Positions 613-24,041 of a DNA stretch of 38,730 nucleotides are shown one piece after another. The stretch is from Nitrospirae bacterium 13_2_20CM_2_62_8 (lineage in GTDB: Bacteria > Nitrospirota > Nitrospiria > Nitrospirales > Nitrospiraceae). The stretch lies in NCBI GenBank assembly GCA_001914955.1, contig MNDM01000042.1:1-38730 (forward strand). The letters run 5' to 3'. The notes beneath the pieces were generated by a model, which saw only the letters and a program-made list of their open reading frames with translations, did not search any database and was not told the DNA's origin. Numbering within the stretch: position 1 is the first letter of the stretch; each line of letters begins with the position of its first letter. Both the position numbers and the translations under genes were made by a program.

Positions 613-2166
613 ATGACCAAGCTGGCCGTTTTGGACATCGGCACCAACTCGATTCATTTGGTTCTCGCCGAAGTCGAGCCTGATTCCTCCTACAAGATCC
701 TGGACCGGTTCAAGGACATGACCCGTCTGGGCGACGGGGCCTTCAAGAACCGTCGCCTGTCGAACGCGGCAATGGCGCGCGGCCTGGAGGTGATCCGAAC
801 CCTCGCCACGCTCGCCAGTAACAAAGGCTACGAGCGGATCGAGGCCGTGGCCACGAGCGCTGTGCGCGAGGCGAGAAACGGCGGGGAGTTTCTCGAGGAG
901 GTGGCGCGGCAGACCGGACTGACGGCGCGGGTGGTCACCGGCCAGGAGGAGGCCCGCTTGATCTACCTGGGTGTCCGGCATAGCATGGACCTGAGCGATC
1001 GGCCCGCGCTGGTGGTGGACGTGGGCGGAGGCTCGGTCGAGCTGATCGTGGGCAACCGGGACACGATGGTCCAGGGACAGAGCCTGAAGCTGGGCGCGAT
1101 CAGGTTGAAAGACCTGTATCTCGAGCAGGACCCTCCCACGAAGCCGATGCTCCGGGACATGGGGAAGGCCATCGACGCACAGCTTCAATCCGCTCTGAAG
1201 CATTTCAAGACCAAACAGTTTGATCGGCTGGTCGGGACATCCGGCATGATCGGGAACCTGGCCGAGATCATCTACCTGCGCCGCACCGGCCAGCCGATCC
1301 CCCAGCTCAACCTAGCCACGGTGACGCTCAAAGAGGTCGCAGCCGTCGAACGTCTCCTGATCGACGCCAGGCCCAAGGCTCGCCTGGCTATTCCAGGGCT
1401 GGACCCGAAACGGGTCGACACGCTGCTGCCGGCCACCACGGTGGTCCGCAGTTTGATGGAGCATCTCGACCAGGACCAGATGACGATCAGCGACAAGGCG
1501 ATCCGGGACGGGCTGATCTACGATTTCATCGAGAGGAACCGGGAGGGCCTCCGCGCCGAGCGGGAGATTCCCAACGTCCGTCGGCGGAACGTCATCTACC
1601 TGGCCCGCCGCTGTCAGTACCCCAAGACCCATTCCCATCACGTGGCGAAGCTCGCGACCCGGTTATTCGACCAGACCGAGCCGCTGCACGGGTTAGGCGA
1701 GCGCGAGCGCGAGTGGCTCGAATACGCGGCGATCCTGCACGATGTGGGCTATCTCATCAATTCCCGGCAGCATCACAAGCACGCCTATTACCTCATCAAG
1801 AACAGCGACCTGTACGGCCTGACGGCGGACGAAATCGAAATGATTGCGAACATCGCGCGCTACCATCGCCGGGCCTTGCCGCAGGCTGAGCACGTACCCC
1901 TGAAAATACTGTCCGCCCGGGATCGGAGAAGGCTGGAGGCCCTGAGCGCGCTGCTCAGGATCGCCGACGGCCTGGATCGCAGCCACTTCTCCGTGATCCA
2001 GGATCTGGAGGTGAAGCTCGGGAAGCCGGTCACGATCACGCTCCGGACCGCCGGCGACCCCGAGCTGGAAATCTGGGCGGCCCGCGGGCGCTCCGATCTG
2101 TTCGAAAAGGTCTTTAAGAGACCGGTCCAGTTCGTGGCGAAGGCGTCGGGAGGAGCACCGGCATGA
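613..2166 (+). CDS. Ppx/GppA phosphatase with C-terminal HD domain
   Basis: 517 residues. The N-terminal ASKHA fold is shown by DIGTNSIHL at residues 8-16 (phosphate 1 motif) and VDVGGGSVEL around residue 137 (phosphate 2 motif). These are the hallmarks of exopolyphosphatase / guanosine pentaphosphate phosphohydrolase. The C-terminal third carries an HD domain with the HD pair at residues 376-377 (ILHDVGY) and later histidines (HHKHAYY, RYHRR). The family cleaves terminal phosphate from polyphosphate or pppGpp in the cytoplasm. Its stop overlaps the start of the next gene (ATGA at 2163), so translation is probably coupled. With SixA and CHAD genes nearby, polyphosphate turnover is the likelier role. 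No clear Shine-Dalgarno precedes the ATG. Whether it acts on polyP or pppGpp cannot be read from sequence. Confidence 0.9.
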   Translation: MTKLAVLDIGTNSIHLVLAEVEPDSSYKILDRFKDMTRLGDGAFKNRRLSNAAMARGLEVIRTLATLASNKGYERIEAVATSAVREARNGGEFLEEVARQTGLTARVVTGQEEARLIYLGVRHSMDLSDRPALVVDVGGGSVELIVGNRDTMVQGQSLKLGAIRLKDLYLEQDPPTKPMLRDMGKAIDAQLQSALKHFKTKQFDRLVGTSGMIGNLAEIIYLRRTGQPIPQLNLATVTLKEVAAVERLLIDARPKARLAIPGLDPKRVDTLLPATTVVRSLMEHLDQDQMTISDKAIRDGLIYDFIERNREGLRAEREIPNVRRRNVIYLARRCQYPKTHSHHVAKLATRLFDQTEPLHGLGEREREWLEYAAILHDVGYLINSRQHHKHAYYLIKNSDLYGLTADEIEMIANIARYHRRALPQAEHVPLKILSARDRRRLEALSALLRIADGLDRSHFSVIQDLEVKLGKPVTITLRTAGDPELEIWAARGRSDLFEKVFKRPVQFVAKASGGAPA

Positions 2167-3600: not shown

Positions 3601-4078
3601 GCTGATCCGGGGTCAGCCACCACCACAAGGCTCCCTTCCCCGCCTTCGGCCCGTCATCAAAACGGATGCAGCAGGCCCCCGCCTTTTTGAGAGAAAGCCC
3701 GGGGGCGGGACGACCGAACAGCATGACTCCCGCCGCCAGCCCGAGATGCGGCTCATGGCCCACGCAGATCACGCAGGCGTCTTCGGGCAAGGAGGCCAAG
3801 AGAGGGAAGAGCTTGTCAGGCGGAGCATCGGGTAGGAGTTCATCACACACCTTCACGTCCGCCAGCCGGAATAACTCCCCGACAAGCTTGGCCGTCTCGA
3901 GCGCCCGTGTCAACGGGCTCGACAGCACATGGGTGGGAGCGATGTCCAGACGACGCAGCCCGACGGCAGCGTCGCGCGCCTTCTCCGCCCCCTTGCGCGT
4001 GAGTGGCCGTTCAGCCTCTTGACCGTCCCAGTCCTCCCGCTCTACCGCGATGCCGTGCCGAAACAGCAGACAGTCCAT
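3578..4078 (-). CDS. SixA-like phosphohistidine phosphatase (histidine phosphatase superfamily)
   Basis: 166 residues. RHG at residues 7-9 near the N-terminus supplies the phosphorylated catalytic histidine. The second catalytic histidine is in CVGHEPHLG at 108. The LSSPLTRALETA segment around residue 52 is the conserved arginine-containing region. Length matches SixA. The ATG at 4078 is preceded by GAGG with good spacing; a GTG two codons upstream overlaps that site and is less likely. It is convergent with the kinase pair and overlaps the end of the second one by 23 bases. SixA, CHAD and Ppx genes are often neighbours in polyphosphate-related clusters. Substrate unknown. Confidence 0.88.
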   Translation of the reverse strand: MDCLLFRHGIAVEREDWDGQEAERPLTRKGAEKARDAAVGLRRLDIAPTHVLSSPLTRALETAKLVGELFRLADVKVCDELLPDAPPDKLFPLLASLPEDACVICVGHEPHLGLAAGVMLFGRPAPGLSLKKAGACCIRFDDGPKAGKGALWWWLTPDQLRRLRKP

Positions 4079-4172
4079 ACGCACCTCACAAGGCGGCGGA
4101 TTCTAGCACACCGGACGGGTCCAAATGAAGCCCCTTGATCGGCCGGACCCGGCATGCTAAAGTTTGGCCCCC

Positions 4173-7659: not shown

Positions 7660-7714
7660 TTTAACATTCCAGTAACGCGCCCTCAACTCGCTTGAAACAC
7701 AGGGGACCTACGAT
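7660..7714 (+). promoter_or_regulatory. Pho-type operator and promoter of pst operon
   Basis: Four direct repeats begin exactly 11 bp apart: TTTAAC (7660), AGTAAC (7671), CTCAAC (7682) and TGAAAC (7693), all sharing AAC at the same place. Ten bases after the last one is TACGAT (7709-7714), a fair -10. The 11-bp period is that of PhoB/PhoP-family (OmpR-type) binding sites. The same arrangement appears upstream of the TPR and regulator genes in this window. Confidence 0.65.
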
Positions 7715-7755: not shown

Positions 7756-8766
7756 ATGATCGATGCTCGACCGATGCTGCGGACGATTGCGGCCTTTCTT
7801 CTCCTCGCCCTATTCAGTTTCCCGCGGCTCCTGGACGCTGAACCGGCAGCCTTAATCAAGATAGATGGTTCCAGCACGGTCTTTCCCATCACAGAAGCGG
7901 TCGCCGAAGAGTTTCAAAAGGCCAACCGGGGCGCTGTTCGCGTGACCGTTGGGATTTCCGGGACAGGAGGCGGCTTCAAGAAGTTCTGTCGAGGAGACAC
8001 CGACATCCAGGACGCTTCGCGTCCGATTTCTGCCGAAGAAATCGAGGCGTGTAGAAAAACCGGGGTTCAATACCTTGAACTGCCCATAGCATTTGACGCG
8101 CTGACGATCGCCGTAAGCCAACAAAATACCTGGGCAGACTCCATCACCGTCTCGGAACTGAAGACCATCTGGGAGCCCTCAGCCCAAGGCAGGATCACCA
8201 AATGGATTCAGGTACGCAGCCCGTGGCCTGATGCACCCCTCAAACTGTTCGGCGCTGGGTCCGATTCGGGCACGTTCGATTACTTCACCGAAGCGATTAC
8301 GGGAAAAGCCAAGGCGAGTCGAGGTGACTATACCGCGAGCGAGGATGACAATACGCTCGTTCAGGGCATCGCGAATGAGAAACATGCGTTGGGCTACATT
8401 CCGTTCGCCTATTTTGAGCCGAACAAGAGGAAGCTCAAGGCTCTCGCGGTCGATGGTGGGAAAGGACCCGTACTCCCCTCCCGTGAGACCGTTGAAAATG
8501 GCACCTATCAGCCGCTCTCACGCCCTGTCTTTATCTATGTCAATCGGCATGCAGCCGAACGACCTGAAGTCAGGGAGTTCGTGGAATTTTACCTCACGCA
8601 GGGGGCTACGTTGATCGAGCAAGTCAAATATGTCCCTCTCCCTGCTCAGACGTACCGCCTCACGATGGAACATTTTCGGCAAGGAAAGTTAGGGACCGTG
8701 TTTCACGGGAGCCCGGCAGTGGGTCTCCAGATTGATGAGTTGTTAAGACGTGAAGCCAAGCCCTGA
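7756..8766 (+). CDS. pstS: Phosphate ABC transporter substrate-binding protein
   Basis: 336 residues. An N-terminal signal peptide (hydrophobic [21 protein letters not shown]) exports it to the periplasm. Typical PstS/SphX motifs are [41 protein letters not shown] and [16 protein letters not shown], which contain the serine and threonine residues that wrap the phosphate ion. Strong Shine-Dalgarno AAGGAGG before the ATG. First gene of pstSCAB-phoU, under the 11-bp-repeat operator. It overlaps pstC by 17 bases. Confidence 0.95.
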
Positions 8767-9676
8767 CGGCTCAGGGGGCTGTCCTCGGGGGGCTCACTCA
8801 AGTCGAGTTGCGCGAGAACGCGCGATCGAATGGGCGCTCCTGTTCGCGGCGCTGACCTCGGTGGCCGTCACCGTCGGCATCGCTGGCGTGCTGGTGTATG
8901 AGTCGTTGCCCTTTTTCCGACATGTATCCCTCGCAGAGTTTTTGACAGATCCCCAGTGGACTCCTTTGTTTTCGGAGGCTCATTACGGGATCTTACCGCT
9001 CGTCGCGGGCACGCTGGTCACCACAGCCGTGGCGTTGCTCATGGCTCTCCCGGTCGGCACGATCACAGCCATTTACCTGAGCGAGTGTGCGACACTCGTC
9101 GTCCGCGAGACCGTCAAACCGCTCCTGGAACTGCTGACCGCCGTGCCCACCGTGGTGTTTGGATATTTCGCGCTCTTGTTTGTGACCCCGTTCCTTCAGC
9201 TCATCTGGGCCGACCTGCCTGGCTTCAATATGCTCAGCGCAGGACTGGTCATCGGGGTCATGATCATTCCATACGTCAGTTCGTTGAGCGAAGACGCGAT
9301 GCGGGCCGTCCCGATGGACATCCGGGAAGGCTCGTACGCCATGGGTGCTACTCGCATGCAGACCGCTCTGCGGGTGGTGGTACCTTCTGCGCTTTCCGGG
9401 ATAGCGGCCGCGTATGCCCTGGGGATCTCTCGAGCTATCGGCGAAACGATGGTGGTGGCCATCGCTGCCGGCATGCAGCCCACCCTGACTTGGAACCCTC
9501 TGGAACCGGCGGAAACGATCACAGCCTATATTGTCCAGGTGAGTTTAGGAGACTTACCGCATGGGAGCATTGGTTATCAGAGTATTTTTGCTGCAGGCCT
9601 GACGTTGCTGCTCATGACCCTGCTGTTTAACGTGGCGGGCTACCTGCTCCGAAAAGGATTCTGGAAAGCCTATTGA
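8750..9676 (+). CDS. pstC: Phosphate ABC transporter permease PstC
   Basis: 308 residues, six predicted membrane helices, starting with IEWALLFAALTSVAVTVGIAGVLVYESL. The ABC permease EAA loop is seen in DAMRAVPMDIREGSYAMGATRMQTALRVVVP (about residues 182-210, quoted in part), followed by GIAAAYALGISRAIGETM, the standard PstC signature. Inner-membrane channel half. The start is a GTG at 8750 overlapping the pstS end; no better start is visible downstream. pstA follows after one base. Confidence 0.93.
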   Translation: MKPSPDGSGGCPRGAHSSRVARERAIEWALLFAALTSVAVTVGIAGVLVYESLPFFRHVSLAEFLTDPQWTPLFSEAHYGILPLVAGTLVTTAVALLMALPVGTITAIYLSECATLVVRETVKPLLELLTAVPTVVFGYFALLFVTPFLQLIWADLPGFNMLSAGLVIGVMIIPYVSSLSEDAMRAVPMDIREGSYAMGATRMQTALRVVVPSALSGIAAAYALGISRAIGETMVVAIAAGMQPTLTWNPLEPAETITAYIVQVSLGDLPHGSIGYQSIFAAGLTLLLMTLLFNVAGYLLRKGFWKAY

Positions 9677-9677
9677 G

Positions 9678-10583
9678 ATGCGCCTCCAGTCAGCCATCGC
9701 GAGGAACCGGTTTGTAGACTCCCTGTTCGCCATTTTGGGCCTACTGGCCATGCTGGTAGGATTGGTCACGCTCCTGGCTCTGTTCCTGGGACTTGCCCTG
9801 GATGGTTGGTCGCGCCTGACCTGGCGATTTTTCACGTCTTATCCGTCCCGCTTCCCTGTAGAAGCCGGAATCCTGTCGGCTTGGGTGGGGACGACCACAG
9901 TGATGTTCGTCACGGCCCTCACGGCCGTGCCTATTGGCGTCGGTGCGGCAGTGTATCTTGAGGAGTATGCACCCAAGAACTGGCTGACAGACCTGATCGA
10001 GATCAACATTGCCAATCTGGCAGGGGTGCCCTCCATTGTGTACGGGCTGCTGGCCCTGGGGCTGCTGGTGTACCAGTTGCATCTGGGCCAAAGCATCTTG
10101 ACAGCGGGCTTGACCCTCGCATTGCTGATACTTCCGATCGTCGTGACTTCGGCTCGAGAGGCGATCCGCTCCGTTCCAAACAGCATCCGGGAAGCGGCGC
10201 ATGCTCTCGGCGCCACCAAGTGGCAGACGGTAAAGGACCACGTGCTCCCATACGCGACTGGTGGCATTCTTACCGGGTTGATTATCGCCTTGTCTCGGGC
10301 GATCGGAGAGAGTGCTCCCCTGATTACCATTGGGGCCCTGTCGTTCATTGCCTTCTTGCCCCATCCGCCATGGCAACCAGAGTTTCCCTACTTGTCATTC
10401 CAATGGCTCCTAGACCCCTTCACCGTCATGCCGATTCAAATGTTCAACTGGGTCTCCCGGCCCCAAGAAGAGTTTCACACGAACGCTGCCGCGGCTGGCC
10501 TGGTATTACTGGGCATGACGCTGGCGATGAACGGGCTGGCGATTTTTATTCGCGCGCGTTTCCGCAAACAGATCAAGTGGTGA
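9678..10583 (+). CDS. pstA: Phosphate ABC transporter permease PstA
   Basis: 301 residues with six predicted membrane helices. The EAA region is [20 protein letters not shown], then [21 protein letters not shown], the PstA signature. It pairs with PstC to form the phosphate channel in the inner membrane. The ATG at 9678 lies one base after the pstC stop, so translation is coupled. It overlaps a possible GTG start of pstB (GTGA at 10580). Confidence 0.93.
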
Positions 10584-10594
10584 CCGAGGCCCGC

Positions 10595-11374
10595 ATGTTG
10601 CCATCGAGTCCCCAGGTCGAGAAAGCCCGAGTGAAGGATCTCAACTTCTATTACGGCTCGGTGCACATCCTCAAAAACATCTCGCTCACCATTGGCGAAA
10701 AGCAGGTCACGGCGGTGATTGGCCCGTCAGGGTGCGGCAAGACCACGTACCTGCGATGCTTCAACCGCATGCATGACCTGTATCCGGGTAACCGCTATGA
10801 GGGCGAGGTTATTCTCCATCCTGATTACGTCAATATTCTGAGTCCCACGGTGGACCCGATCGAAATTCGCATGCGGATCAGCATGGTCTTTCAAAAGCCA
10901 AATCCTTTCCCCAAATCGATCTTCGAGAATGTAGCATACGGTCTGCGAGTGCGCGGGTGGACTGACCGGGCGGTGCTGGACGAGAAAGTGGAGCAGGCCT
11001 TGCGGAGAGCCGTCTTGTGGGAGGAGGTCAAGGATCGTTTAACCCATCCGGCCCTGACGCTGTCGGGCGGGCAGCAGCAGCGGTTGTGCATTGCCCGCGC
11101 ATTGGCCACGGAGCCTGAAATTCTGTTGTTCGATGAACCCACCTCTGCTCTGGATCCCACCGCGACGGCACGCATCGAGGAACTCATTCTGGACCTCAAG
11201 ACCCAAGTCACCATCATTATTGTCACCCACAACATGCAGCAGGCTGCTCGTGTCTCTGATTTCACGGCTTTTCTGTATCTCGGCGAATTGGTTGAGTTCA
11301 ACAAAACTGATAAGATGTTCACGGCCCCGTCAAACCGATTGACCGAGGACTATATTACCGGCCGGTTCGGATGA
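10595..11374 (+). CDS. pstB: Phosphate ABC transporter ATPase
   Basis: 259 residues, the usual PstB size. Walker A is GPSGCGKTT (43-51), the signature is LSGGQQQR, and Walker B is [12 protein letters not shown]. The [10 protein letters not shown] and [16 protein letters not shown] segments are diagnostic for PstB rather than other ABC ATPases. The ATG at 10595 has GAGG six bases upstream. A GTG at 10580 overlapping the pstA stop is an alternative that adds five residues. Supplies ATP hydrolysis for the PstSCA importer. Confidence 0.94.
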
Positions 11375-11429
11375 AAGAATCGGGCTCAGGGCGAGCGTCG
11401 ACGGATGAGGCCCTTTAGCTTGGAGGAAC

Positions 11430-12098
11430 ATGGACCGCCACTTTGACGAAGAACTCAAAGAGCTGAAAGCCAAGATTCTCAGCATGGGCAGCATGGTTGA
11501 AAGCCAGATTCAGGGAGCCCTTCGGGCCCTAACCGAACGGGATTCAGCTTTGGCCCGGAGGGTCATTGAAAACGACCACGGTGTGAATGCCCTGGATGTC
11601 GAGGTGGATGAGAACTGTCTGCGCCTGCTTGCCCTTCATCAGCCGGCGGCGCGGGATCTCCGCTTCATCACAACCGCCATGAAAATCTCCACGGAGCTTG
11701 AACGCATGAGCGACCTCGCCGAGAACATTGCCGAACGCGCGATCGAGCTGAACGAAGAGCCTCAGCTCAAACCATACATTGATCTTCCTCGCATGGGTAA
11801 CTGGACGTTGCGGATGGTGAAGGAGAGTTTGGATTCATTCGTGAACCAGGACGCCGTGCTTGCGCGCAAGGTGTGCACGGACGATGATTTCGTGGATGAC
11901 CTCACCGAGCAGTTATTCCGCGAACTGATGTCGTTCATGATCGAGAATCCTCAGACCATTTCGCGTGCCATACGCTTGACGTTTATCGGCAAGTACATCG
12001 AACGGATCGCTGACCATGCCACCAACGTGGCCGAGTTGGTGGTGTACCTGGTCGAAGGCAAGATCATCCGACACACCGTTCCCCCAACCTCCTCCTGA
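11430..12098 (+). CDS. phoU: Phosphate transport regulator PhoU
   Basis: 222 residues, all helical, with two PhoU repeats. The metal-binding signatures are ISTELERMSDLAENIAERAIEL and FIGKYIERIADHATNVAELVVYL (quoted only as landmarks; each has the E-R-x-x-D-x-x-x-N pattern). It links PstSCAB to the PhoR kinase and represses the Pho response when phosphate is plentiful. Strong Shine-Dalgarno (TTGGAGG). Last gene of the operon; no terminator is evident behind it, and 12099-12312 shows no gene. A PhoR/PhoB pair is not in this window. Confidence 0.95.
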   Translation: MDRHFDEELKELKAKILSMGSMVESQIQGALRALTERDSALARRVIENDHGVNALDVEVDENCLRLLALHQPAARDLRFITTAMKISTELERMSDLAENIAERAIELNEEPQLKPYIDLPRMGNWTLRMVKESLDSFVNQDAVLARKVCTDDDFVDDLTEQLFRELMSFMIENPQTISRAIRLTFIGKYIERIADHATNVAELVVYLVEGKIIRHTVPPTSS

Positions 12099-12312: not shown

Positions 12313-12876
12313 CTATTGAGCGACGCAGTAAGTCTTCTCCGGAAGGGGGGAATAGCCTCCTCCGACACCTTCTTTAAATTCGGCGATCTCGGCGCTTCCT
12401 GTCTGCCAAACATGGATGCAGTCCGCGATCAAGAAGGGCTCGGTCTTCGTCACGCCGTTCACCAGGACCGGTCGTCTGCTCGTAGTAGTTCCCACGATGA
12501 TGAATCGGTTCCCCCTCCTCAGAGCCCGCAGATCAAGCTCTCCTGGGTAGAGAAATGCGAATTCGTAGTCGCCCGTTCTTTTTACGTCCTCCGTGGGTCC
12601 ATACGCGGGATGTTTCACGATGGGAAGTTGTTCCGCGACAATCACTGTACCTTTGCCGTTCTTGTATGCCTGTACGATCCGACCTCCCAGCTCGACTGTA
12701 ATGCCTGAATCGGACTTCCCGGACGGATTCGAGGGAGAGGCATCGCGCCAGGCTTCGAAATGAAAAGTTGGGGAGACCTTTTCCGTCGCTTTCGGTGGAA
12801 AAAGCGTGTTGGCAGCGCACGCAGACATCAACGCGCAGACTGTAATTGTCGCAGCCACGAGAGGAGACGGTTTCAT
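12313..12876 (-). CDS. Slp-family outer membrane lipoprotein
   Basis: 187 residues. Lipoprotein signal peptide with lipobox LMSAC at about residue 19. The mature part resembles the Slp (starvation-inducible lipoprotein) family: ELGGRIVQAYKNGKGTVIVAEQLPI, later FLYPGELDLRALRRGNRFIIVG, and a final cysteine in CIHVW and near the C-terminus. It shares the layout of the divergent paralogue at 13016. In Slp proteins the lipid anchors to the outer membrane; the molecular role is unclear. It faces the 11-bp-repeat operator at 12965-13004, suggesting phosphate-starvation control. Confidence 0.82.
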   Translation of the reverse strand: MKPSPLVAATITVCALMSACAANTLFPPKATEKVSPTFHFEAWRDASPSNPSGKSDSGITVELGGRIVQAYKNGKGTVIVAEQLPIVKHPAYGPTEDVKRTGDYEFAFLYPGELDLRALRRGNRFIIVGTTTSRRPVLVNGVTKTEPFLIADCIHVWQTGSAEIAEFKEGVGGGYSPLPEKTYCVAQ

Positions 12877-12964: not shown

Positions 12965-13004
12965 TGTTACAAGTGTGTTACAAGCTAGTTAACAGTCCGT
13001 TACG
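12965..13004. promoter_or_regulatory. Four 11-bp direct repeats between divergent slp genes
   Basis: GTTAC starts at 12966, 12977 and 12999 and GTTAAC at 12988, exactly 11 bp apart. On the opposite strand the same bases read GTAAC/TTAAC repeats that match the pst operator. The block ends only 12 bases before the ATG at 13016, too close for a normal -10, so it fits activation of the minus-strand gene or repression of the plus-strand gene. Confidence 0.62.
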
Positions 13005-13015: not shown

Positions 13016-13549
13016 ATGAAACAGATACTCAACGATCTCCTTGCCTTAGCTACATGTATATTGGCGGCAGGGTGCTCGACTCCCTCCCTGTTCCCCCCGC
13101 ATGTCGCCAATAGCTCGACCTCTTTGGAGTTCGGGGTGCTGCAAGCCAAACCCGACGTCTTCAATGGTCGAGTCGTGCAACTTGCCGGACGCATTATCGG
13201 AGTGGAAGAATCCACAGGCGGTACGCTCATCTTTGCCCATGAACTTCCCTTGGAGAAGCATCCCGTCTATGGACCTGCAGAGACCAGCGCGTCCACGCCG
13301 GCATTTGCAATCTTCTACCCCGGCAAAGTTGATCCAAGCGCGCTGTGGTATGGCAATAAGTTCGTCGTCATCGCGTTGGCCCAAGGGCGGCAAACCGTGG
13401 CCGTGGATGGCATTCCGCATAGAGAACCGTATGTTGTTGCTCGGTGCATGCATGTCTGGAAGACGGGGGGATACTATGAGATCGCAGATTTTCCCCATAC
13501 GTCCGACGGCTATTATCCACTAGAGCAGGAGACATACTGCGCAAACTAA
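13016..13549 (+). CDS. Slp-family outer membrane lipoprotein (divergent paralogue)
   Basis: 177 residues with lipoprotein signal peptide and lipobox LAAGC (cysteine about residue 20). The mature part parallels the other Slp protein: VVQLAGRIIGVEESTGGTLIFAHELPL, HPVYGPAE, IFYPGKVDPSALWYGNKFVVI, CMHVW and a C-terminal YC. Same length and architecture, so the two arose by duplication. The Shine-Dalgarno is weak (GGGGGG). The repeat operator almost touches its start codon. Expected at the outer membrane inner leaflet; function unknown beyond a starvation link. Confidence 0.82.
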   Translation: MKQILNDLLALATCILAAGCSTPSLFPPHVANSSTSLEFGVLQAKPDVFNGRVVQLAGRIIGVEESTGGTLIFAHELPLEKHPVYGPAETSASTPAFAIFYPGKVDPSALWYGNKFVVIALAQGRQTVAVDGIPHREPYVVARCMHVWKTGGYYEIADFPHTSDGYYPLEQETYCAN

Positions 13550-13657: not shown

Positions 13658-14533
13658 TTAAAGACTGGATCCGACAGACCGAGAAATGACGCGGCTGGAC
13701 CCGCAAGCCGGTAGATAACCTTCTCGGCAGGCGCGCTCATAATCTTCCCGTGCTCCAGTCGAGTTCCCAAGTATGGACCGCGCAATCCCCCGGTTGTAGA
13801 CCAGCACATTGTCGTCGGTCCCCAGGGCTAACGCATGGGAGAAGTCTTTCTCGGCTTGATCGAAGCGGCCGAGAAACATTTCAACCAAGCCACGACTTTG
13901 ATAGACCTCTGGAAGCGCATTATTTAAACCCGCCGCGAGATCGAGATCGTGCTTCGCTTCACGGTACTGCTGCCGTAGTGCATAGATGACGGCGCGATTG
14001 GCGTAGATCGTTGCGTCCTGGCTGTCCAACGCGGCCGCTGTCGTGAGATCGGCGAGGGCTTCTTCGAATCTCCCGAGATGTCTGTACGCCATTCCCCGGT
14101 GTTTGAGCGTATGAGCGGATTGCGGTCCCAACTTAAGCGCTTCATTGAACGCTTGGAGAGCAAGATCCGGATTGCTGCCTGATTCTAAGTACGCGATCCC
14201 GAGGTTGTTTTGGTACATGGCATTGGTTCGATTCAGTCGGACTGCTTGAGCAAAGTCCTCAAGCGCCTCGCTCTTGTGCCCCTGGGAAGCATAAATGAAC
14301 CCCCGGGCATTCCACGCCTGCGCTCGTTCAGGTCCCTGTCGGATGGCATCCGATGCGGTTGCCAGAGCTTGTTCGGTCTTACCCTGGCGGAATTCCATCT
14401 CACATCTGGCCACGAGGTTTGAGACCGCATCCTGCCCACGTACAGGCACGGCTATCGTGGTGCAGCCCCATAACAACCAGGCGTTGCAGCACAGGCTCAG
14501 ACTGTACAGAAACCCACGTTGGACTACACTCAT
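13658..14533 (-). CDS. TPR-repeat lipoprotein
   Basis: 291 residues from the ATG at 14533, which has GGGGAGGAAAG upstream. The signal peptide ends in LLWGC, a lipobox. The rest is a run of about six tetratricopeptide repeats: AWNARGFIYASQGHKSEALE, NNLGIAYLESG, HRGMAYRHLGRFEEALADL, ANRAVIYALRQQYREAKHDL, QSRGLVEMFLGRFDQAEKDF, YNRGIARSILGN. TPRs form protein-protein scaffolds. Its own Pho-type operator lies just upstream. Located on the minus strand after two other lipoprotein genes. Role unknown; assembly or stabilisation of envelope proteins during phosphate limitation is a guess. Confidence 0.85.
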   Translation of the reverse strand: MSVVQRGFLYSLSLCCNAWLLWGCTTIAVPVRGQDAVSNLVARCEMEFRQGKTEQALATASDAIRQGPERAQAWNARGFIYASQGHKSEALEDFAQAVRLNRTNAMYQNNLGIAYLESGSNPDLALQAFNEALKLGPQSAHTLKHRGMAYRHLGRFEEALADLTTAAALDSQDATIYANRAVIYALRQQYREAKHDLDLAAGLNNALPEVYQSRGLVEMFLGRFDQAEKDFSHALALGTDDNVLVYNRGIARSILGNSTGAREDYERACREGYLPACGSSRVISRSVGSSL

Positions 14534-14582
14534 TCTTTCCTCCCCGCTATGGGCCGATCCCCTCACTCAAATTACACCACCC

Positions 14583-14637
14583 AGTGTAATGGAGTGGTAT
14601 TATCCGCGATAAAACTAATTGTTAACTGTGTGTAAAC
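14583..14637 (-). promoter_or_regulatory. Pho-type operator and promoter of the TPR lipoprotein gene
   Basis: On the minus strand GTTTAC (14637), GTTAAC (14626), GTTTTA (14615) and GATAAT (14604) start 11 bp apart. TACACT (14588-14583) follows ten bases after the last, as in the pst promoter. The block begins directly behind the stop codon of the upstream gene. Confidence 0.6.
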
Positions 14638-14639
14638 TT

Positions 14640-15608
14640 TTACTGAGCGGCCGGCTTACGGGGGGCTTGGCGCCCGGAGGAAGGCTTTGAATTACCCGAT
14701 GTGGTTTCGCTACGAAGCTGTTCGAGCTCGGCTTTGAGTTTCTCGATCGTCGCAGATTGTTCCTTCATCTGGGTACGAAGGTCAAGATTGGCGTTGGTGA
14801 GCTCTCGCAGTTGCAGGCGAAGGTCACTCTCCGAATCTGCCGCGCGCGGCATAGAAGAATCAGCTTTCAATGCCGGCTGTCCAGTTGCGGGAACTGCCGC
14901 TTCCTGGCGGGATGATTCTGCGACGACCGGGGGGGTCTCCTTTGTAGCCAGGACCTCAGCTGGGTTGAGGGAGATGTGAACTGTTTCAAACGGATTCCAT
15001 CGCGGTTCTTTTGCATCGGGCACGGTGGCGGCCTGGGCTGGTGGATTCACCCACAGCTTCATGCCTTTTGCATCACGGGGATCACGCTTCTCGCCTCCTC
15101 CTGGATCAGCTTTTAGAAAAGCGTAATGATCAGTGAGGACCACATGTAGGTAGTCATCTCGAAAAAATAGGCTCCCGGACGTTCGGTCTGTCTCATAGCG
15201 TGCGATCGGATTTCGGAGAATAAAGAAGACTCGGTCGCGCAATGTCGCCGCGTGGAACGCGGCGGCGAGCGGCTCAGCCAGAGCAGTGAGTTCAGCTTCG
15301 GTGAAGACTGGTTTAGGCTGAGGGGTTTGGAAGCTATCGAGGAACATCCCGCTCCAACCTGATACCTGGAGTGACCCGATGATCGAACGAATTTCTTGCG
15401 GCGTGTATGTGACGGGGTGTCTATTGATAACCGGCGGAGCGGCGTCCATATCCACGGATAGATCGGTCACGATGCCGACCTGAATGCCTGACGCGTCATA
15501 GAGAAGCCGCTGCTCCGCGCAGGCTGTCAACGCCAGCAGCCAATACAAACCAAGGAGGAGCGTGCTTGCAGCGATTCCTTGCCGGAGCGAATCCTTGTTC
15601 ATTTGCAT
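14640..15608 (-). CDS. Lipoprotein with C-terminal coiled coil, unknown function
   Basis: 322 residues. A signal peptide with lipobox LTAC (cysteine about residue 30). The central part (residues 40-180) is a folded domain without a motif I recognise; it includes VTYTPQEIRSIIGSLQVSG and RVFFILRNPIARYETDR. A proline- and alanine-rich linker follows, then a heptad-type coiled coil (LRLQLRELTNANLDLRTQM, IEKLKAELEQL) and a basic tail. It overlaps the preceding lipoprotein gene by ten bases, so they are co-transcribed. Envelope location is expected. Function unknown. Confidence 0.78.
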   Translation of the reverse strand: MQMNKDSLRQGIAASTLLLGLYWLLALTACAEQRLLYDASGIQVGIVTDLSVDMDAAPPVINRHPVTYTPQEIRSIIGSLQVSGWSGMFLDSFQTPQPKPVFTEAELTALAEPLAAAFHAATLRDRVFFILRNPIARYETDRTSGSLFFRDDYLHVVLTDHYAFLKADPGGGEKRDPRDAKGMKLWVNPPAQAATVPDAKEPRWNPFETVHISLNPAEVLATKETPPVVAESSRQEAAVPATGQPALKADSSMPRAADSESDLRLQLRELTNANLDLRTQMKEQSATIEKLKAELEQLRSETTSGNSKPSSGRQAPRKPAAQ

Positions 15609-15952
15609 TCAAATTGGATCGTCCAGAGTTTTTCCGAAGGGATCTGCCCATTCCATGCCCGATCGATAGTTTGGTTGATCCGCGCAGTCTCTCCCTCGCG
15701 AATCGTCCTGTAGCCGTTCGGGCACTTTTTCGCAAGGAGCTGAAGCGCATCATACCGGCCCGAAGACGAAAGCACGTCTTGTTCTTGGAGGACTGGATAG
15801 TTGATTGTCCCTCCAGTCGCCGTTTCTTTGACCAGACGGGCTCGAGAGGTACAGCCGGTCAGCATAATCATCAGAACGATTCCGGCGAGCAGGTTCGGCA
15901 ATGAGACATGAAGTTGTGGGCATTTACGTGAAGCGTGCCCACGCTTCACCAT
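15599..15952 (-). CDS. Small lipoprotein, unknown function
   Basis: 117 residues from the ATG at 15952. A signal peptide with hydrophobic LLAGIVLMIML and lipobox LTGC. The mature part is about 80 residues with two cysteines (KKCPNGY and the C-terminal FEC), likely disulphide-linked in the periplasm. The KCPNGYRTIREGE stretch recalls small envelope lipoproteins of unknown role. The first codons after the ATG form a perfect 10-bp inverted repeat, so the true start may be downstream. It overlaps and probably is co-transcribed with the coiled-coil lipoprotein gene. Confidence 0.65.
   Translation of the reverse strand: MVKRGHASRKCPQLHVSLPNLLAGIVLMIMLTGCTSRARLVKETATGGTINYPVLQEQDVLSSSGRYDALQLLAKKCPNGYRTIREGETARINQTIDRAWNGQIPSEKLWTIQFECK
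15928..15949. repeat. Perfect 10-bp inverted repeat at the start of the lipoprotein gene
   Basis: GTGAAGCGTG, two bases, then CACGCTTCAC, immediately inside the predicted start codon at 15950-15952. It could be an operator or an mRNA hairpin that limits initiation. Confidence 0.6.
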
Positions 15953-16093
15953 AACGTTCTGACGATACACCCTCACCTGCGTACTGCGGTGCCTCTGGAT
16001 AGACCGGCATTATACCCGACGCCGACGCCCGACGCCACTTCGTCTCGCCTTCATCGTGGTGCAAGAACGTTTTGGGCCGCCTCCTACATTATT

Positions 16094-17542
16094 TTATTGA
16101 TAGCGTACCTGGAACTGAACCAAAAGGGCATTTTTCGCGAACGGATCACCAACCGGGACTGCTGGAGTGCCCGGGCCAGTCCCCTGATGGTGGCGAAATT
16201 CATAGTCGATTGAGAGCTTAGTCTGGATTTTCGGCGGAAGATTTTCAAAGTAGTAGTTGAACCCCACGATGGTGCGTGTATACATATCATTTGACGTCGT
16301 GGTGCTGGGGTCGAACTGTTCATACATGAGGACTGGTTCAAAGTTCTGTAAAGGCCCATTGGAGATGAAATATTTTCCGTACACATACCAGGTCCGCCGT
16401 TGCACGCCAGGCGCCCCGTCGCCACCGCAGATTGCTCTGGTGAGGCAGGAGCCTTGAGCCGGAGTCCCAACGAGCGTTTGATTGGCTCCATCATGTCCTT
16501 GCCAGAATTCTCCCTGCATCATGAAACCTGGGATGAGTCTCGATGTGTAGCGGGCGTCGACTGCGAACCGGTCTAATTTCCCTTTGCCACGCCCGTTGAT
16601 GGCGGTATTGGTATTATTACTCTCGCCGCTTTGCAGCGTAAAACTGACCCAGGAGATGTCCGTCACGAGAAAGCGTTCCCTGGTATAAAAGACTTTAGGG
16701 CTATTCGCGCCGACGGCATTGGCCTGGAAGTTATTGCCGTTCATGATGCCGCCGACAAATTCCATCCGATCGAACAGGGTCCCTCTGACGTCGGCAAAAT
16801 AGTCCCGCTCATGGACGAATTCAATCGTGCCACCGGTGCCATTGGTCGTCAATCCGGTGGTACCACTGCCGCCGACCGAGGTGAGATAGGGCGAGCTGAT
16901 GACATCTCGGAGACCGCCAGAGGTTTCCGTAAAAATGCCGAAGGGCATGCGGAAAATACCCATACGGATCATGTTGAAAGTTGGCGCGATGCTGGGAAAC
17001 GGCCTGAAATCAATGTACGACTCGCGGAAATACGTGGTCGAGGCGGCCGTACCGCCAGGGTTTTGCGTTCTGTTGGTACAATCAGTCCCTGGAGTGCAAC
17101 CCGGCGTGTTGTTCGTCAAGTTGATGCTCTGAAACTCAGCCAAGGCATGCCATTTCGGAACGTATTCGTTGATTTTCCCGTAAAACAGCAGCTCAGACCG
17201 TCGGACCGAGATATTATCGGAGCTCTTGCCCTCAGCCGTTTTGGCATCCAGATGCGTGTATAAAATCTGTAGGGCGTTCATGCCGACATTAAACTTTCCG
17301 CTCAACGACGGAAGTTTCTCAATCTTGGCTTTCCATTCCTCGAGAGCGCCTATGCGCTTTTCATAGTTCACCATCGGATCTTCCACCGACAGGGACGATG
17401 GGGTTGGTTTGGAGCTTGGTGGCTGGATGGGCCCTTGATTCTCCTTGGTGGGGTCAGCAGCTGACGCGACATATCCGCCAGCAAAAAGCGCCAGTAGGAC
17501 GGTCAGAATACTAACCGTAAGAACCATTGGATGGCTGCGCAT
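16094..17542 (-). CDS. Outer membrane porin, probably phosphate-selective
   Basis: 482 residues. Cleavable signal peptide (LTVSILTVLLALFAGGYVASAA), a proline/serine-rich segment, a short coiled-coil (YEKRIGALEEWKAKIEKL), then a beta-barrel rich in alternating strands (GKFNVGMNALQILYTHLD, ESYIDFRPFPSIAPTFNMIRMGIFRMPFG in part). It ends VQFQVRYQ, an outer-membrane strand. The YIDF...RMGIFRMPFG element resembles OprO/OprP-type porins. Good Shine-Dalgarno AAAGGAGG. Its neighbours (Pho-type regulator, pst operon) support phosphate or polyphosphate uptake, but selectivity is inferred from context only. Confidence 0.8.
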   Translation of the reverse strand: MRSHPMVLTVSILTVLLALFAGGYVASAADPTKENQGPIQPPSSKPTPSSLSVEDPMVNYEKRIGALEEWKAKIEKLPSLSGKFNVGMNALQILYTHLDAKTAEGKSSDNISVRRSELLFYGKINEYVPKWHALAEFQSINLTNNTPGCTPGTDCTNRTQNPGGTAASTTYFRESYIDFRPFPSIAPTFNMIRMGIFRMPFGIFTETSGGLRDVISSPYLTSVGGSGTTGLTTNGTGGTIEFVHERDYFADVRGTLFDRMEFVGGIMNGNNFQANAVGANSPKVFYTRERFLVTDISWVSFTLQSGESNNTNTAINGRGKGKLDRFAVDARYTSRLIPGFMMQGEFWQGHDGANQTLVGTPAQGSCLTRAICGGDGAPGVQRRTWYVYGKYFISNGPLQNFEPVLMYEQFDPSTTTSNDMYTRTIVGFNYYFENLPPKIQTKLSIDYEFRHHQGTGPGTPAVPVGDPFAKNALLVQFQVRYQ

Positions 17543-17644
17543 GAAAACCTCCTTTGGGATGCCTCAGTGCAACGGCCTTCGCAGACCTATTTTCGAAGCG
17601 TCTCACTGTTGTATGTCTCGATATCTTGCTCATGACATCACGAT

Positions 17645-17663
17645 AAAAAATCCGGCTGCGGAT
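17645..17663 (-). terminator. Weak intrinsic terminator behind the regulator gene
   Basis: On the minus strand ATCCG-CAGC-CGGAT is followed by six T. It lies 10 bases after the regulator stop and upstream of the porin. The 5-bp stem is short, so read-through to the porin gene is likely. Confidence 0.45.
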
Positions 17664-17672
17664 GTGCCATGA

Positions 17673-17993
17673 TCAAGACGAAGGATCTCGCAACCTGTAA
17701 CCGATGCCCCACACGGTTTCTGCAAGGCTTCGCTCATTTGCAGACGTTCGAAGTTTGTGCCGCAACTTTGACATATGCACATCAACTGTTCGGAGTGTGA
17801 CGTAGACTCCTTTCCCCCAAACCCGCTGCAAGAGTTCCTGTCGCCGATACACCGCCCCAGGACGTGCCGCTAAGGTCCACAGCAGAGCAAACTCCGTGGG
17901 GGTCAAATCAATTGAGCGACTTCCCATCCGCACCGATTGACGTTGTCTATCTATCGCGAGCGGGCCAACGATGACTTTGAACTGCTGTCTCAT
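17673..17993 (-). CDS. PhoB/OmpR-type DNA-binding domain protein lacking a receiver
   Basis: 106 residues from the ATG at 17993; the open frame extends upstream to 18122 through a very basic stretch with no receiver-like sequence. The C-terminal winged helix of OmpR/PhoB regulators is complete: RSIDLTPTEFALLWTLAARPG, RRQELLQRVWG, RTVDVHMSKLRHKL (recognition helix) and TVWGIGYRL. No phospho-acceptor domain precedes it, in frame or in the other frames examined. It lies next to the porin and has its own 11-bp-repeat operator, so it may autoregulate and control the local Pho-like genes without phosphorylation. Start uncertain; GGAG lies 10 bases before 17993. Confidence 0.8.
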   Translation of the reverse strand: MRQQFKVIVGPLAIDRQRQSVRMGSRSIDLTPTEFALLWTLAARPGAVYRRQELLQRVWGKGVYVTLRTVDVHMSKLRHKLRTSANERSLAETVWGIGYRLRDPSS

Positions 17994-18199
17994 GGATGAA
18001 GGTCTCCGTTCCTTGGAATGACGCTTGTGCGTCCGCCGTGCTGATCGGTTCTCGCCGGTCGTCCTCCTCACTCGAGACATATTCAGCGCAAGACTGCAGG
18101 CTAAGGGTCTCCGAGGCATCAACTAAGGCTCTTCTAGAGCCGCTTCGCCAAAGACAAACGAGGCGAAGATCGCAAGAAAACATCTGTAATAACTGAGCG

Positions 18200-18253
18200 A
18201 GCATAGCGAGAAGGTGTTATCGCGCCCTGACAGGGATGTTAAGAATGTGTAAA
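18200..18253 (-). promoter_or_regulatory. Pho-type operator and promoter of the regulator gene
   Basis: Minus-strand repeats TTTACA (18253), TTAACA (18242), GTCAGG (18231) and ATAACA (18220) start 11 bp apart; the third is degenerate. TATGCT (18205-18200) follows after nine bases as a -10. The rest of 17994-18321 holds no gene I can support and would be a long leader. Confidence 0.55.
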
Positions 18254-18321
18254 TTATTACGTTGCGGTTTTGGCGAGCGGCCGAGGAGATTCCTATAGAA
18301 GGAACAGAAGAACGTACAGGA

Positions 18322-18624
18322 TCAGTTCATCGGAAGCAGCCAGAGACCGACCAGGAGCGGGGAAATCCGTTCGCGCGAAATCAAGTCCCGATTTTCGCTC
18401 AAGCGACAGCCTAGCTCAGCCGTGCACTGGTCACGACTTTTCTCCGCGACCAGCTTCATGCCTGCCTGATACTTGGGGCTGTCGTAGGCCTGCGTCTCGC
18501 ACTTATTGTAGTCGGTACCAAAGTCCACTTTCGGGTCGTTGAGAAGACCGCGTCCACTTGGTCCAGCGTCAGCCTCGACAATGGGATGTGCTCCTCCCTC
18601 GGTTTTCTTTGCACCCAAGACCAT
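18322..18624 (-). pseudogene. Decayed paralogue of the small Cys-pair lipoprotein at 24038
   Basis: An open frame of 100 codons whose middle aligns with the lipoprotein at 24038-24289: DFGTDYNKCETQAYDSPKYQAGMKL against EFSHDYTQCETEAYQNPKAQGGMKL (compare from the aromatic residue), then DQCTAELGCRLSE against DRCLAKKGWVLRQ. The signal peptide and lipobox are missing; the N-terminal 28 residues look random, and the C-terminus runs on for about 20 residues past the normal end. No Shine-Dalgarno. Likely a dead copy; a cytoplasmic domain is less probable. Confidence 0.55.
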
Positions 18625-18720
18625 GTGCGTTCGTAAGGTACGCCGTGGAGGGTGCGGCGCAATAACCTCGGTGTTACCAAATTGTAAATTTTGACACGTT
18701 GACGCCGGACAGCTCCTATT

Positions 18721-19635
18721 TCAACGCCGGTTGGCCGCGCGGAACTCCTTTACCACGTCCTTTACAGCCCGTCGCTCACCATCAACCAAGTAATTGAGCC
18801 GTCGCATCTCCTCATCGGTGATGGCCCCGGCGAGCGCGGAGACCGCTTCACGGAGTTCTGGAAAGCGAGCCAGTACCGCGCCGGACATCACCGGCGCCGC
18901 ATGGTAGGAAGGAAAATACCGCTTGTCGTCAGTCAACACAAACAGTCCGAGTTTGGTAATGAGTCCGTTCGTGGAGTCTCCCGCAATGACATCCACCTTC
19001 CGATCCGCCAGCGCCTGATAGGTGAGCGCGAGGTCCATCACCCGAGGCGCCTCGGCAAACCGCAAGCCATAGCTGCGGGAAAGACCCGGGAACCCGTCAG
19101 GCCGCTCCAAGAACTCATACCCGAACGCGGCTCGCAACCGGGGGGTATGCGCGGCCAGTTGCGAGATGGTCTTTACCCCCAACCGGTCGGCGTCCTCCCT
19201 TCTGATGATGATCGCGAAGGTGTTGTTGAACCCGAGCGGAGGCAACCATTCGAGGCGGAAGCGCGTGCGGTAGGCCTCCTGGACGGTACGGAACACGGTC
19301 TCGGAATCGGAGGACGGCGGCAATTGTAAGATGGCGGTCAATGCCGTGCCGGTGTACTCCACATATGCGCCGATCTGACCGGCCATGAGGGCCTGATGAC
19401 AGATGAAGGTTCCGCCCAGGTTGAGCTTTCGTGCCACCCGCAGATCGGTTCGCGCCTCGATCTGCTGCGCGAGTAGCTCACCCAGGATCACCTGCTCCGT
19501 AAAGTTCTTCGACCCGACGACGATGGTACGGTCTGTTTCGGAGCCGCCGCAGCCAGCCACCTGGGTCATGCCGAGCGCCGCCCCGGCGATTCCCAACGCA
19601 GCCCAGCCGACGCACCAGACTAGCCCTCGCATCAT
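18721..19635 (-). CDS. Betaine-type ABC transporter substrate-binding protein (OpuC/OsmX-like)
   Basis: 304 residues. Signal peptide with a probable lipobox (QVAGC, cysteine about residue 29). The ligand-binding type is shown by VVGSKNFTEQVILGELLAQQIE, LGGTFICHQALMAGQIGAYVEYTGTAL (in part) and VIAGDSTNGLI, all typical of OpuCC/OsmX/ProX-like proteins for quaternary amines. The start overlaps the permease stop (ATGA). Last gene of a four-gene operon with an EgtD-like methyltransferase. Ligands of this family include glycine betaine, choline and, for the EgtU branch, ergothioneine; which applies is open. Confidence 0.9.
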   Translation of the reverse strand: MMRGLVWCVGWAALGIAGAALGMTQVAGCGGSETDRTIVVGSKNFTEQVILGELLAQQIEARTDLRVARKLNLGGTFICHQALMAGQIGAYVEYTGTALTAILQLPPSSDSETVFRTVQEAYRTRFRLEWLPPLGFNNTFAIIIRREDADRLGVKTISQLAAHTPRLRAAFGYEFLERPDGFPGLSRSYGLRFAEAPRVMDLALTYQALADRKVDVIAGDSTNGLITKLGLFVLTDDKRYFPSYHAAPVMSGAVLARFPELREAVSALAGAITDEEMRRLNYLVDGERRAVKDVVKEFRAANRR

Positions 19636-22431: not shown

Positions 22432-22437
22432 CATTTG

Positions 22438-23262
22438 ATGGCGAGTTCCGTCAGCATCGGGGCCTTCTACAACCCACACCTGGCCCTGGAAACCCTGGCG
22501 GCCGGCGATCTGATCGGCCATCTCGCCATGGCCGATCCGCCGGGGCAACACGATCCCGCCTGGCCGGAGATTCGCGCCCGATATACGCTGCTCCTCCACG
22601 ATTACCTGGGCCAGCTCAGCGAGCCGTTCGATGAAGAGGAACTCGGCCGCGCCCGATCGCTGCTGGACCAATACCGTTCGCCGTGGGCTGCCGAACACCT
22701 GCAACGCATCCGCCGCACGGCCAGCGCCGTCGGGAATGATGCCAGACCCCTGCTCGACTACGTCTTCCCTCCCCTCTACACGGAGGACCTCTTAGCCGAG
22801 TACGCCCGGAACGCGCGCCTGCTCCGGGACCGCCTCGGTGTCCCGCTTGCGGTTGAACCGATTCCTACCTACCTGCACCTCGACTTGCCCCAGATGAGCG
22901 AACCAGAGTTTCTGCACCGCCTCTGCGAACAATCGGGCTGCCACCTGCTGCTGGACATCGTCCACACCTGGCTCTCGGCCCGGTTTGCCGGCCTGGACCC
23001 GCGGTCGCTGCTGTTGCAGCTCCCGCTTGAGCGGGTCATCGAGATGCACGTGTCCGGTCATGCGCCTGACCCCGACCTGGAGGAACCGTGGATCGCCCCG
23101 ATCCTTCCGAATAGGGAAATTCTGGATCTGGCGGAGCTGGCGGCCGCGCGGGCGCCCGGACTTCGCGCGATTACGTTCGACGCCTTCAGCCCCTCTCTCC
23201 GCCCGGAGACGCTTCTGGCCGGGGTGCGCATGCTCCGCGAACGCTTCGGGCAAGGCGGATGA
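22438..23262 (+). CDS. MNIO-family (DUF692) peptide-modifying enzyme, divergent
   Basis: 274 residues. The TIM-barrel family of multinuclear non-heme iron oxidative enzymes is recognised by order and spacing of: GAFYNPH (8-14), LLLH (H54), AEHL (E86-H87), LAVEPIPTYL (E140), EPEFLHRL, LLLDIVHTWLSA (D173, H176) and IEMHVSGHA (E202, H204, H208). The usual LLLDVNNVYVSA asparagine ligand is replaced by H176, the early EVHSENY motif is lost, and the terminal DTH motif is absent. Related enzymes turn cysteines into oxazolone-thioamide or thiooxazole groups, or excise a carbon. No Shine-Dalgarno lies directly upstream. It overlaps the partner gene by ATGA. Role: modification of the PTCHQ precursor. 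Confidence 0.82.
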   Translation: MASSVSIGAFYNPHLALETLAAGDLIGHLAMADPPGQHDPAWPEIRARYTLLLHDYLGQLSEPFDEEELGRARSLLDQYRSPWAAEHLQRIRRTASAVGNDARPLLDYVFPPLYTEDLLAEYARNARLLRDRLGVPLAVEPIPTYLHLDLPQMSEPEFLHRLCEQSGCHLLLDIVHTWLSARFAGLDPRSLLLQLPLERVIEMHVSGHAPDPDLEEPWIAPILPNREILDLAELAAARAPGLRAITFDAFSPSLRPETLLAGVRMLRERFGQGG

Positions 23263-24041
23263 CCGGCCGCTCTCTCCACGACGCGCTGCTTACCGTGCTG
23301 AGCGACGGACCGCTTCGCGCGCGGCTGCTGACTGGAGACACCAGCGCCCGCGGGATGCTGGGCCGTGAGGAGTGGGTAATGCTCAGGCGTGTGTCCGTTG
23401 AACGCCTGTGCCGCATGGCCCGGTTTCTTGCACGTCACTACTACCGCGAGCGGATCGTCAGGCTGTTCCGCCACATACGCACCCTGGCACCACACACAGG
23501 CCGTGATCCCCTGGCCGTCCTCGATACGCCAGCAGGGCTGGCCTCGCTGGATCAGTCAGTCTTAGGAACCCACGCGACTGCTGAGCGCCTGGTCTCGCTG
23601 ATTGAAGACTCTCTCATCGGAAACGACGCAGTGATCAGACTCGCGATTCCGTACTGGAGGGATCTGGTCCGGTACCACGTCACGATGTTTCGAGTAGAGG
23701 CCGGGGCGCCACTTTCCGGAGGCAATCCGGGCGGAACGCCGCGTCGTACCCCGTCCACCCGGATCTTAGATCTGGACTGGGACATCCCTGGCGTGATCGC
23801 CGACCTGCGAAAGGGAGCTCCACCTGTCCCGATCGCGAAAGCGGCCCCGACCTGCCTGTTGGTCGCGCGCTCCCGCGACGGGCGGGTCACCGCGGTCCGC
23901 TGCTCACAAGACATCCGGGTGCTGGTCGAAGCGGCCGACGGTCAGCGAACTGTTGACCAACTGGCTCGGATGAGTGGGCTCTCGGTTCAGGAAATCGGAG
24001 GTCTCTTGCCACAACTGGAGGAGATTGGAGCGATCAGTTAA
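23259..24041 (+). CDS. MNIO partner protein (HvfC/BufC/MbnC-like)
   Basis: 260 residues. The N-terminal half is helical with LRARLLTGDTSARGMLGREE and ERLCRMARFLARHYYRERIVRLF (in part), reminiscent of DUF2063 partners. The C-terminal 80 residues form a winged-helix-like domain (LLVARSRDGRVTAVRCSQDI, then DQLARMSGLSVQEIGGLLPQ) as in MNIO partner proteins, which bind the precursor leader and present it to the enzyme. It overlaps the MNIO stop by ATGA, so the two are translated together. Family assignment rests on position and gross pattern and is less sure than that of the enzyme. The end overlaps the convergent lipoprotein gene by four bases. Confidence 0.68.
   Translation: MTGRSLHDALLTVLSDGPLRARLLTGDTSARGMLGREEWVMLRRVSVERLCRMARFLARHYYRERIVRLFRHIRTLAPHTGRDPLAVLDTPAGLASLDQSVLGTHATAERLVSLIEDSLIGNDAVIRLAIPYWRDLVRYHVTMFRVEAGAPLSGGNPGGTPRRTPSTRILDLDWDIPGVIADLRKGAPPVPIAKAAPTCLLVARSRDGRVTAVRCSQDIRVLVEAADGQRTVDQLARMSGLSVQEIGGLLPQLEEIGAIS

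Follow-up and report, generated by a model that had tools for sequence, protein, structure and literature searches.

The gene at 17673..17993 on the minus strand of the window (the whole stretch of DNA analysed, 38,730 nucleotides from a Nitrospirae genome) probably encodes an added, Pho-controlled and phosphorylation-independent regulator, and the reading that we favour, with moderate confidence, is that it supplies an effector-only PhoB acting as a phosphorylation-independent, feed-forward co-activator of the Pho regulon. The gene has no receiver domain and encodes a complete winged helix, is conserved in its short form, lies among phosphate genes, stands behind a Pho-type promoter with a -10 element in fixed phase, and is under purifying selection in most of the pairs compared. 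PhoB is the textbook case of a phosphorylation switch; here, the effector half, known on its own as a laboratory construct, seems to have been made by evolution as a separate gene and kept within the would-be regulon. The features of the window on which the argument draws are listed below.

613..2166 (+): exopolyphosphatase gene ppx, counterpart of the gene right after the short gene in a group of eleven genomes
3578-4084: SixA-like phosphatase, by similarity/Pfam
7661..7699 (+): Pho-type box upstream of pstS, with TACGAT 9 nt past the box
7756..8766 (+): pstS (PF12849; 63% to pstS of locus L034)
8750..9676 (+): pstC (70%)
9678..10583 (+): pstA (63%)
10220..11374 (+): pstB open reading frame (42%), real start probably near 10.58 kb
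11430..12098 (+): phoU (PF01895, E 5e-49)
12313-12876 (-): lipoprotein-like gene, divergent from the gene at 13016-13549
12965..13003 (-): Pho-type box between the two divergent lipoprotein-like genes
13016-13549 (+): lipoprotein-like gene, divergent from the gene at 12313-12876
13658..14566 (-): TPR protein of the cluster (Pfam)
14598..14636 (-): Pho-type box upstream of the TPR gene, with TACACT 9 nt past the box
14640..15608 (-): conserved open reading frame of the porin cluster, no confident family (Pfam, synteny)
15599..15976 (-): small lipoprotein-like open reading frame of the porin cluster (synteny)
16094..17542 (-): porin-like open reading frame downstream of the short gene, synteny conserved
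17673..17993 (-): receiver-less PhoB-like regulator, 106 aa from ATG 17993; 149 aa if the frame is read from TTG 18122
17691..17918 (-): PF00486 (Trans_reg_C) winged-helix domain, residues 69-144 of the 149-aa frame, profile positions 2-77 of 77
18200..18205 (-): -10-like hexamer TATGCT, 9 nt past the last repeat of the short gene's operator
18215..18253 (-): Pho-type operator of the short gene, TTTACA/TTAACA/GTCAGG/ATAACA at 11-bp steps, 20/24 matches

The frame 17673-18122 (-) is present in the window and would yield 149 residues from a doubtful TTG start. The likely start is ATG 17993, because the nearest relative, a short form from a Nitrospirae MAG (L034) that is 71% identical over the 106-aa part, is itself a 106-aa frame beginning with ATG, and because the codons 5' of the ATG are dissimilar between the two sequences. 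PF00486 is the sole Pfam family in the frame (E 9.1e-26), and its profile is matched from end to end, so that the winged helix is complete; the best NCBIfam family is PhoB (TIGR02154), matched in its effector half only and at 87.2 bits, short of the equivalog cut-off of 296.2 bits. Thus the C-terminal winged helix of an OmpR/PhoB response regulator is present, and its N-terminal receiver with a phospho-acceptor Asp is absent. Neither Pfam nor tblastn detected a receiver, whether within the reading frame or, in all frames, within the 741 bases that precede it; the best match of 31 receivers to window positions 17990-18730 had an E value of 0.022 (19.6 bits) and lay on the plus strand, while positive-control matches reached 1e-50 to 1e-70. 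Both halves of the first-pass annotation's description, a full OmpR/PhoB winged helix and no receiver in or out of frame upstream, are therefore upheld. A decayed receiver 5' of short genes was also sought with the 31 receivers by tblastn in eight upstream regions and rejected, the best match being at E 0.002 over 17 residues (G060). At its other end, the window's protein stops a few residues past GYRLR, directly after the wing.

With pst-phoU, ppx and SixA-like genes in the window, the contig is a phosphate cluster that contains the short gene; the first-pass annotation had named neither the pstS-pstC-pstA-pstB-phoU run (7756-12098) nor ppx. The start of pstB is placed near 10.58 kb because the longer frame overlaps pstA. 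The adjoining porin of the earlier description survives in part, as a frame conserved in synteny to which no Pfam model matched, and "porin" is therefore only a likely name for it; in the gap before it (17543-17672), no Pho box reaches the threshold used below. Several other elements lie nearby. On the minus strand at 18456-18720 there is a second, relic pstS-like sequence, in which 19 aa are 84% identical to pstS2 of the genome G010, and it sits behind a three-repeat box at 18661-18688; a 100-aa frame at 18322-18624 (-) has stretches 38-41% identical in L223, L224 and L153 and is a conserved small protein; and genes resembling MNIO-type RiPP maturation enzymes (ApyH/BufB-like, weakly ApyI-like) adjoin the phosphate cluster at 22435-24041 (+).

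A profile built from six short forms, the window's included, was run against 235 genomes of the order, and short frames (105-171 codons) were found in at least 18 of them among the matches listed, a lower bound for matches down to E ~2e-22 that includes the six forms used in the profile. The first-pass annotation had left conservation of the short form in relatives for checking, and on this count the form is conserved. Among the same matches, 17 short forms score 103-172 bits and one 95.6, the best full-length regulator scores 99.5, and most genomes of the order lack the short form; those that have it are spread over two families. The neighbourhoods, examined in all 18 genomes, include pst, porin, psiE or polyphosphatase genes in 17. 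In six genomes (G000, G187, G015, G079, G080, G078) the short gene lies by porin-lipoprotein-TPR genes, with psiE or pst, and in eleven (G050, G060, G211, G212, G213, G215, G221, G223, G224, G227, G234) it directly precedes ppx without exception, with sixA, bactofilin, psiE, CBS or Porin_O_P genes nearby where the contig extends far enough. The G003 gene lies outside a Pho cluster, near ExbB- and TonB-looking genes, and a nineteenth, divergent form in G145 (94 bits) has no recognised Pho genes nearby. In a phylum sample of 395 genomes searched with a 17-row profile, no further short form appeared outside the order among the matches listed at 1e-26; the matches from other orders were full-length regulators of 228-270 codons, with one of 613, and for 12 that were inspected the best match was a receiver-bearing PhoB, beside a PhoR-like kinase in 11. 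Frames under 190 codons occurred in two of 80 relatives, L034 and L047, the latter cut by a contig end. Near the short gene in G050, G060 and G227 lies a sigma70-family factor (L117 8244-9872 (-), L116 5117-6769 (+) and L165 9401-11080 (-)), with regions 1.2, 2, 3 and 4 confirmed in the L117 copy and the other two assigned by likeness; it is possibly a Pho-dedicated sigma factor.

In all three trees the short forms make up one group, apart from the full-length regulators sampled, with support of 99/95 (51 rows), 100/94 (61 rows) and an SH-aLRT of 86 (95 rows). All trees omit F_G000c14 on account of its length, the 61-row tree also omits S_G003 and S_G145, and the 95-row tree takes in 44 of 79 other relatives. 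Two placements were considered and rejected: that the short form is a truncated degenerate-receiver regulator, the trees keeping the two apart, and that the short group is sister to orthodox PhoB, a relation with 96/90 support in the 61-row tree, E. coli PhoB falling elsewhere with 44 diverse full-length regulators. The same slot in close relatives can be empty or differently filled. In G010, of the same genus as G187, pstS and the porin gene diverge 244 bases apart with nothing between them, where G187 has the short gene; in G074 a 236-aa regulator with a degenerate receiver stands between psiE and the porin gene, where its congeners G079 and G080 have the short gene. The DNA-binding domain of the G074 copy resembles that of another clade (EEHALDVHIH helix), whose members, though not this copy, are in the trees. 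Full-length OmpR-type regulators also occur in these clusters (L114 5499-6215 (-), L153 375-1112 (-), L154 12976-13770 (+) and L219 6314-7024 (+)), with receivers that by eye lack the acidic pair and the lysine; the L114 protein matches no Pfam receiver model, and in G175 (L167 5859-6585 (+)) such a regulator is split into two overlapping frames, possibly by a frameshift. The four are candidates for a second phosphorylation-independent regulator of the Pho regulon.

PHO boxes are described as 11-nt direct repeats (PMC4415409). We scored boxes as four 6-mers TT[ACT]ACA at fixed steps, with a threshold of 18 of 24; the consensus is that of Bacillus PhoP sites, and it was chosen once visual inspection had shown the repeats. 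Within the window, four places reach the threshold, each 5' of a same-strand cluster gene (short gene, TPR, lipoprotein and pstS), and no place reached 18 in any of 20 windows resampled with a first-order Markov model, which bears out the 11-bp-repeat promoter that had been ascribed to the short gene; the 12965-13003 box has three-repeat matches on both strands. Across 17 Pho loci (250,413 bases) there were 33 places at step 11 vs 2-7 at ten other steps, and the reversed consensus gave 8 at step 11; nine held-out loci, from genomes without the short form, had 12 places at step 11 vs 0-2 at other steps. A set of 29 other loci (203,182 bases), with 17 places at step 11 vs 0-5 at other steps, was rejected as a negative control in favour of step length, several of its boxes preceding pst or regulator genes. 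A three-repeat pattern allowing no more than 2 mismatches, a stricter criterion than the box score and one that misses boxes, had five matches genome-wide, all in the window's contig, and none in the control.

In promoters activated by PhoB, such repeats stand in for the -35 element, and a box with a phased -10 should be the expected look of one. Among 27 hand-chosen sites that are followed by a gene, 14 have TANNNT exactly 9 nt past the box; the 27 comprise 25 of the 33 Pho-locus places, leaving out four with no gene behind and four not clearly before a Pho gene (L153 14498, two in L157, L165 14227), plus two of the 17 other-locus places, before pstS2 in L123 and before a regulator in L121. 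Because of that choice the held-out set matters, in which every site with a gene was kept: 9 of these 11 sites had TANNNT in phase, at 9, 20 or 31 nt, set against a genomic rate of 0.0045 per position. An own-promoter box at threshold precedes the short gene in 6 of 17 short loci, and none stands directly before it in the other 11. Since genomes without the short gene carry the same boxes, these belong to the general Pho regulon and are not private to the short protein. The short gene of the window, with its 11-bp direct-repeat Pho-box promoter, is by sequence a member of that regulon.

The best PDB sequence match of the short protein is 1gxp, the E. coli PhoB effector domain, and for its AlphaFold model (pLDDT 86.1) Foldseek ranks 1gxq and 1gxp at the top; the predicted fold has an N-terminal four-stranded sheet, three helices and a C-terminal hairpin, as in PhoB effector domains. 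VIA-align places YycF/VicR (Z 18.0) above PhoB (15.9), and the fold therefore gives the class and does not single out PhoB or a function. With PhoB numbering taken from the alignment to the PDB match and from the residue ranges of the structural comparison, the equivalents of W184, G185, V190, R193, T194, D196, H198 and R203 are invariant in 17/17 aligned short forms, and wing position R219 is W in all 17. W184, G185 and V190 of the PhoB activation loop have a role in sigma contact. W184 in particular is reported as an RNA polymerase contact (PMC7380067). The invariance of these three favours an activator; the equivalents of D192 (L, V, A, P or S) and of E177 vary, however, and given this variation the sigma contact may be altered, while the lack of a D192 equivalent would be compatible with a competitor.

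The own genome also carries full-length PhoB/PhoR candidates, on contig C65 at 46930-47598 and 48372-49391, adjoining Pit and PhoU-like genes (named by eye and likeness). TIGR02154 and TIGR02966 have matches at 1e-40 in 45/45 genomes, none of them, full-length matches included, above the cut-offs, and the idea that the short form replaces PhoB/PhoR was rejected on this ground; no 300-bit-class PhoR match is listed for G078, G211, G221, G018 and G145. The isolated effector domain of E. coli PhoB is active. The first-pass annotation's reading is supported in part, as to the receiver-less PhoB-type protein with its own Pho-type promoter and conserved short form; binding to the PhoB sites and a feed-forward or competing role are predicted. 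We infer that the short protein would bind the boxes, activate from them and itself be driven by PhoB, in the following way. Under phosphate limitation, full-length PhoB/PhoR from contig C65 would activate the Pho promoters, the short gene's among them; the short protein would then, without phosphorylation, bind head to tail on the tandem 11-bp repeats of those promoters, in the manner of the isolated E. coli effector domain, which is described as binding DNA constitutively once the receiver is removed (PMC4415409). Through its conserved activation loop it would contact sigma70, and it would add to the effect of phosphorylated PhoB by sustaining or amplifying the transcription of pst, porin and polyphosphate genes.

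The main rival, to which we allow a lesser though real chance, has the short protein made from its Pho promoter, occupying the same repeats with weak activation, and so capping or shutting off the PhoB response by negative feedback. The unconserved D192 and E177 equivalents would fit such a dampener, as would the own Pho-type promoter and the impossibility of a receiver dimer where there is no receiver; yet a pure blocker would not need the W, G and V that are invariant in all 17 forms, and the constitutive DNA binding of the isolated E. coli domain (PMC4415409) also speaks against it, as does the activity of that domain. Rather unlikely, in our judgement, is a separate specificity, by which the protein, possibly aided by a partner, would serve not Pho boxes generally but a promoter subset such as porin or ppx. 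Adjacency to the porin gene in six genomes and to ppx in eleven, the separate group formed by the DNA-binding domain in the trees, and the sigma70-family factor near three of the short genes could be read this way, but one box type precedes pst, porin, TPR and short genes alike, and the recognition-helix residues match those of PhoB.

That the gene is a relic, the decaying remainder of a full-length regulator that lost its receiver, is very improbable. The first-pass annotation would have been undone by a full-length regulator in this position together with relaxed selection; the former does occur, in the G074 slot, and one pair of short forms has a dN/dS of 0.40-0.59. Against this, dN/dS is 0.15-0.17 for the window and G187 and 0.26-0.27 and 0.16-0.25 for two further pairs (four pairs being measurable, and G212/G213 not computable), which indicates that selection maintains the protein in at least three of the four. 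There is, moreover, no receiver remnant, the promoter is of Pho type, and the short form recurs in at least 18 genomes and two families as one tree group. From the conserved short orthologues, their single clade and the low dN/dS in three of four pairs, we conclude that the gene is not broken. Barely credible is an ordinary one-domain OmpR-family regulator that landed in the cluster by chance and has nothing to do with phosphate: the G003 and G145 forms do lie outside Pho clusters, but 17 of 18 genomes keep the gene in Pho/polyphosphate clusters, and in two different layouts.

Beyond the feed-forward co-activator that we favour, a wider proposal is tentative, and we regard it as possible rather than probable. 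One order may have rebuilt its Pho regulon on phosphorylation-independent PhoB-type proteins, one clade of them lacking the receiver and a full-length form with a degenerate receiver occupying the corresponding slot in a sister genome. With such regulators behind Pho promoters and directly before ppx in 11 genomes, PhoB/PhoR would merely trigger a self-sustaining, possibly bistable starvation state governed by how much regulator is present and not by whether it is phosphorylated. As a gene family the short form is well supported, and its regulatory function is predicted. Such a gene makes it possible to ask in a natural system what the receiver contributes, and it is a candidate positive-feedback element of Pho signalling; the boxes, for their part, make the Pho box of Nitrospirota readable. 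In the open literature, with subscription journals mostly outside it, we found neither a receiver-less PhoB that serves the Pho regulon specifically nor a study of that regulon in Nitrospira.

Receiver-less PhoB-like regulators as such are already known. RoeA of Yersinia entomophaga is described as a PhoB-like HTH protein of ~15 kDa without a phosphorylation domain, an activator that binds PhoB-like sites and controls exoprotein release (PMC10101115). Compared by description, the short form (106 aa; 149 from TTG) is likewise a PhoB-like HTH protein without such a domain; the two differ in the C-terminal extension of up to 40 aa given for RoeA, absent from the window's protein, and in setting, RoeA lying beside a lysis cassette and the short family in phosphate clusters (PMC10101115). 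ChxR (PMC3960148) and RitR (PMC5965902) are described as phosphorylation-independent OmpR/PhoB-type regulators and, like the ALR domains (PMC4395418), as having atypical, degenerate receivers that keep the receiver fold, whereas the short form has none. Full-length regulators of that look are nonetheless found in the same clusters. One-component regulators of the CadC/ToxR type resemble the short form in having a winged helix without a receiver, and match it structurally. In these proteins, a membrane segment and a sensor domain come after the helix, whereas the short chain ends after the wing with no transmembrane segment following. CadC is described as transmembrane (PMC5430869). With the full-length PhoB/PhoR of Nitrospirota the short form has the effector-domain family in common and, by inference, the sites; the full-length proteins of the order have different activation loops (VWGYDYYGTTRTVDVH in the window's genome) and are placed apart from the short group. 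From E. coli PhoB (1gxp/1gxq) it is set apart by the missing receiver, the W at wing position R219, a score of 87 of 296 bits and boxes that are TTAACA-like here vs CTGTCAT in E. coli (PMC4415409). It nevertheless shares with that protein the winged-helix fold, the nearest PDB sequence, the W, G and V of the activation loop, the R, T, D, H and R of the recognition helix, and tandem 11-bp sites with a -10 element close behind.
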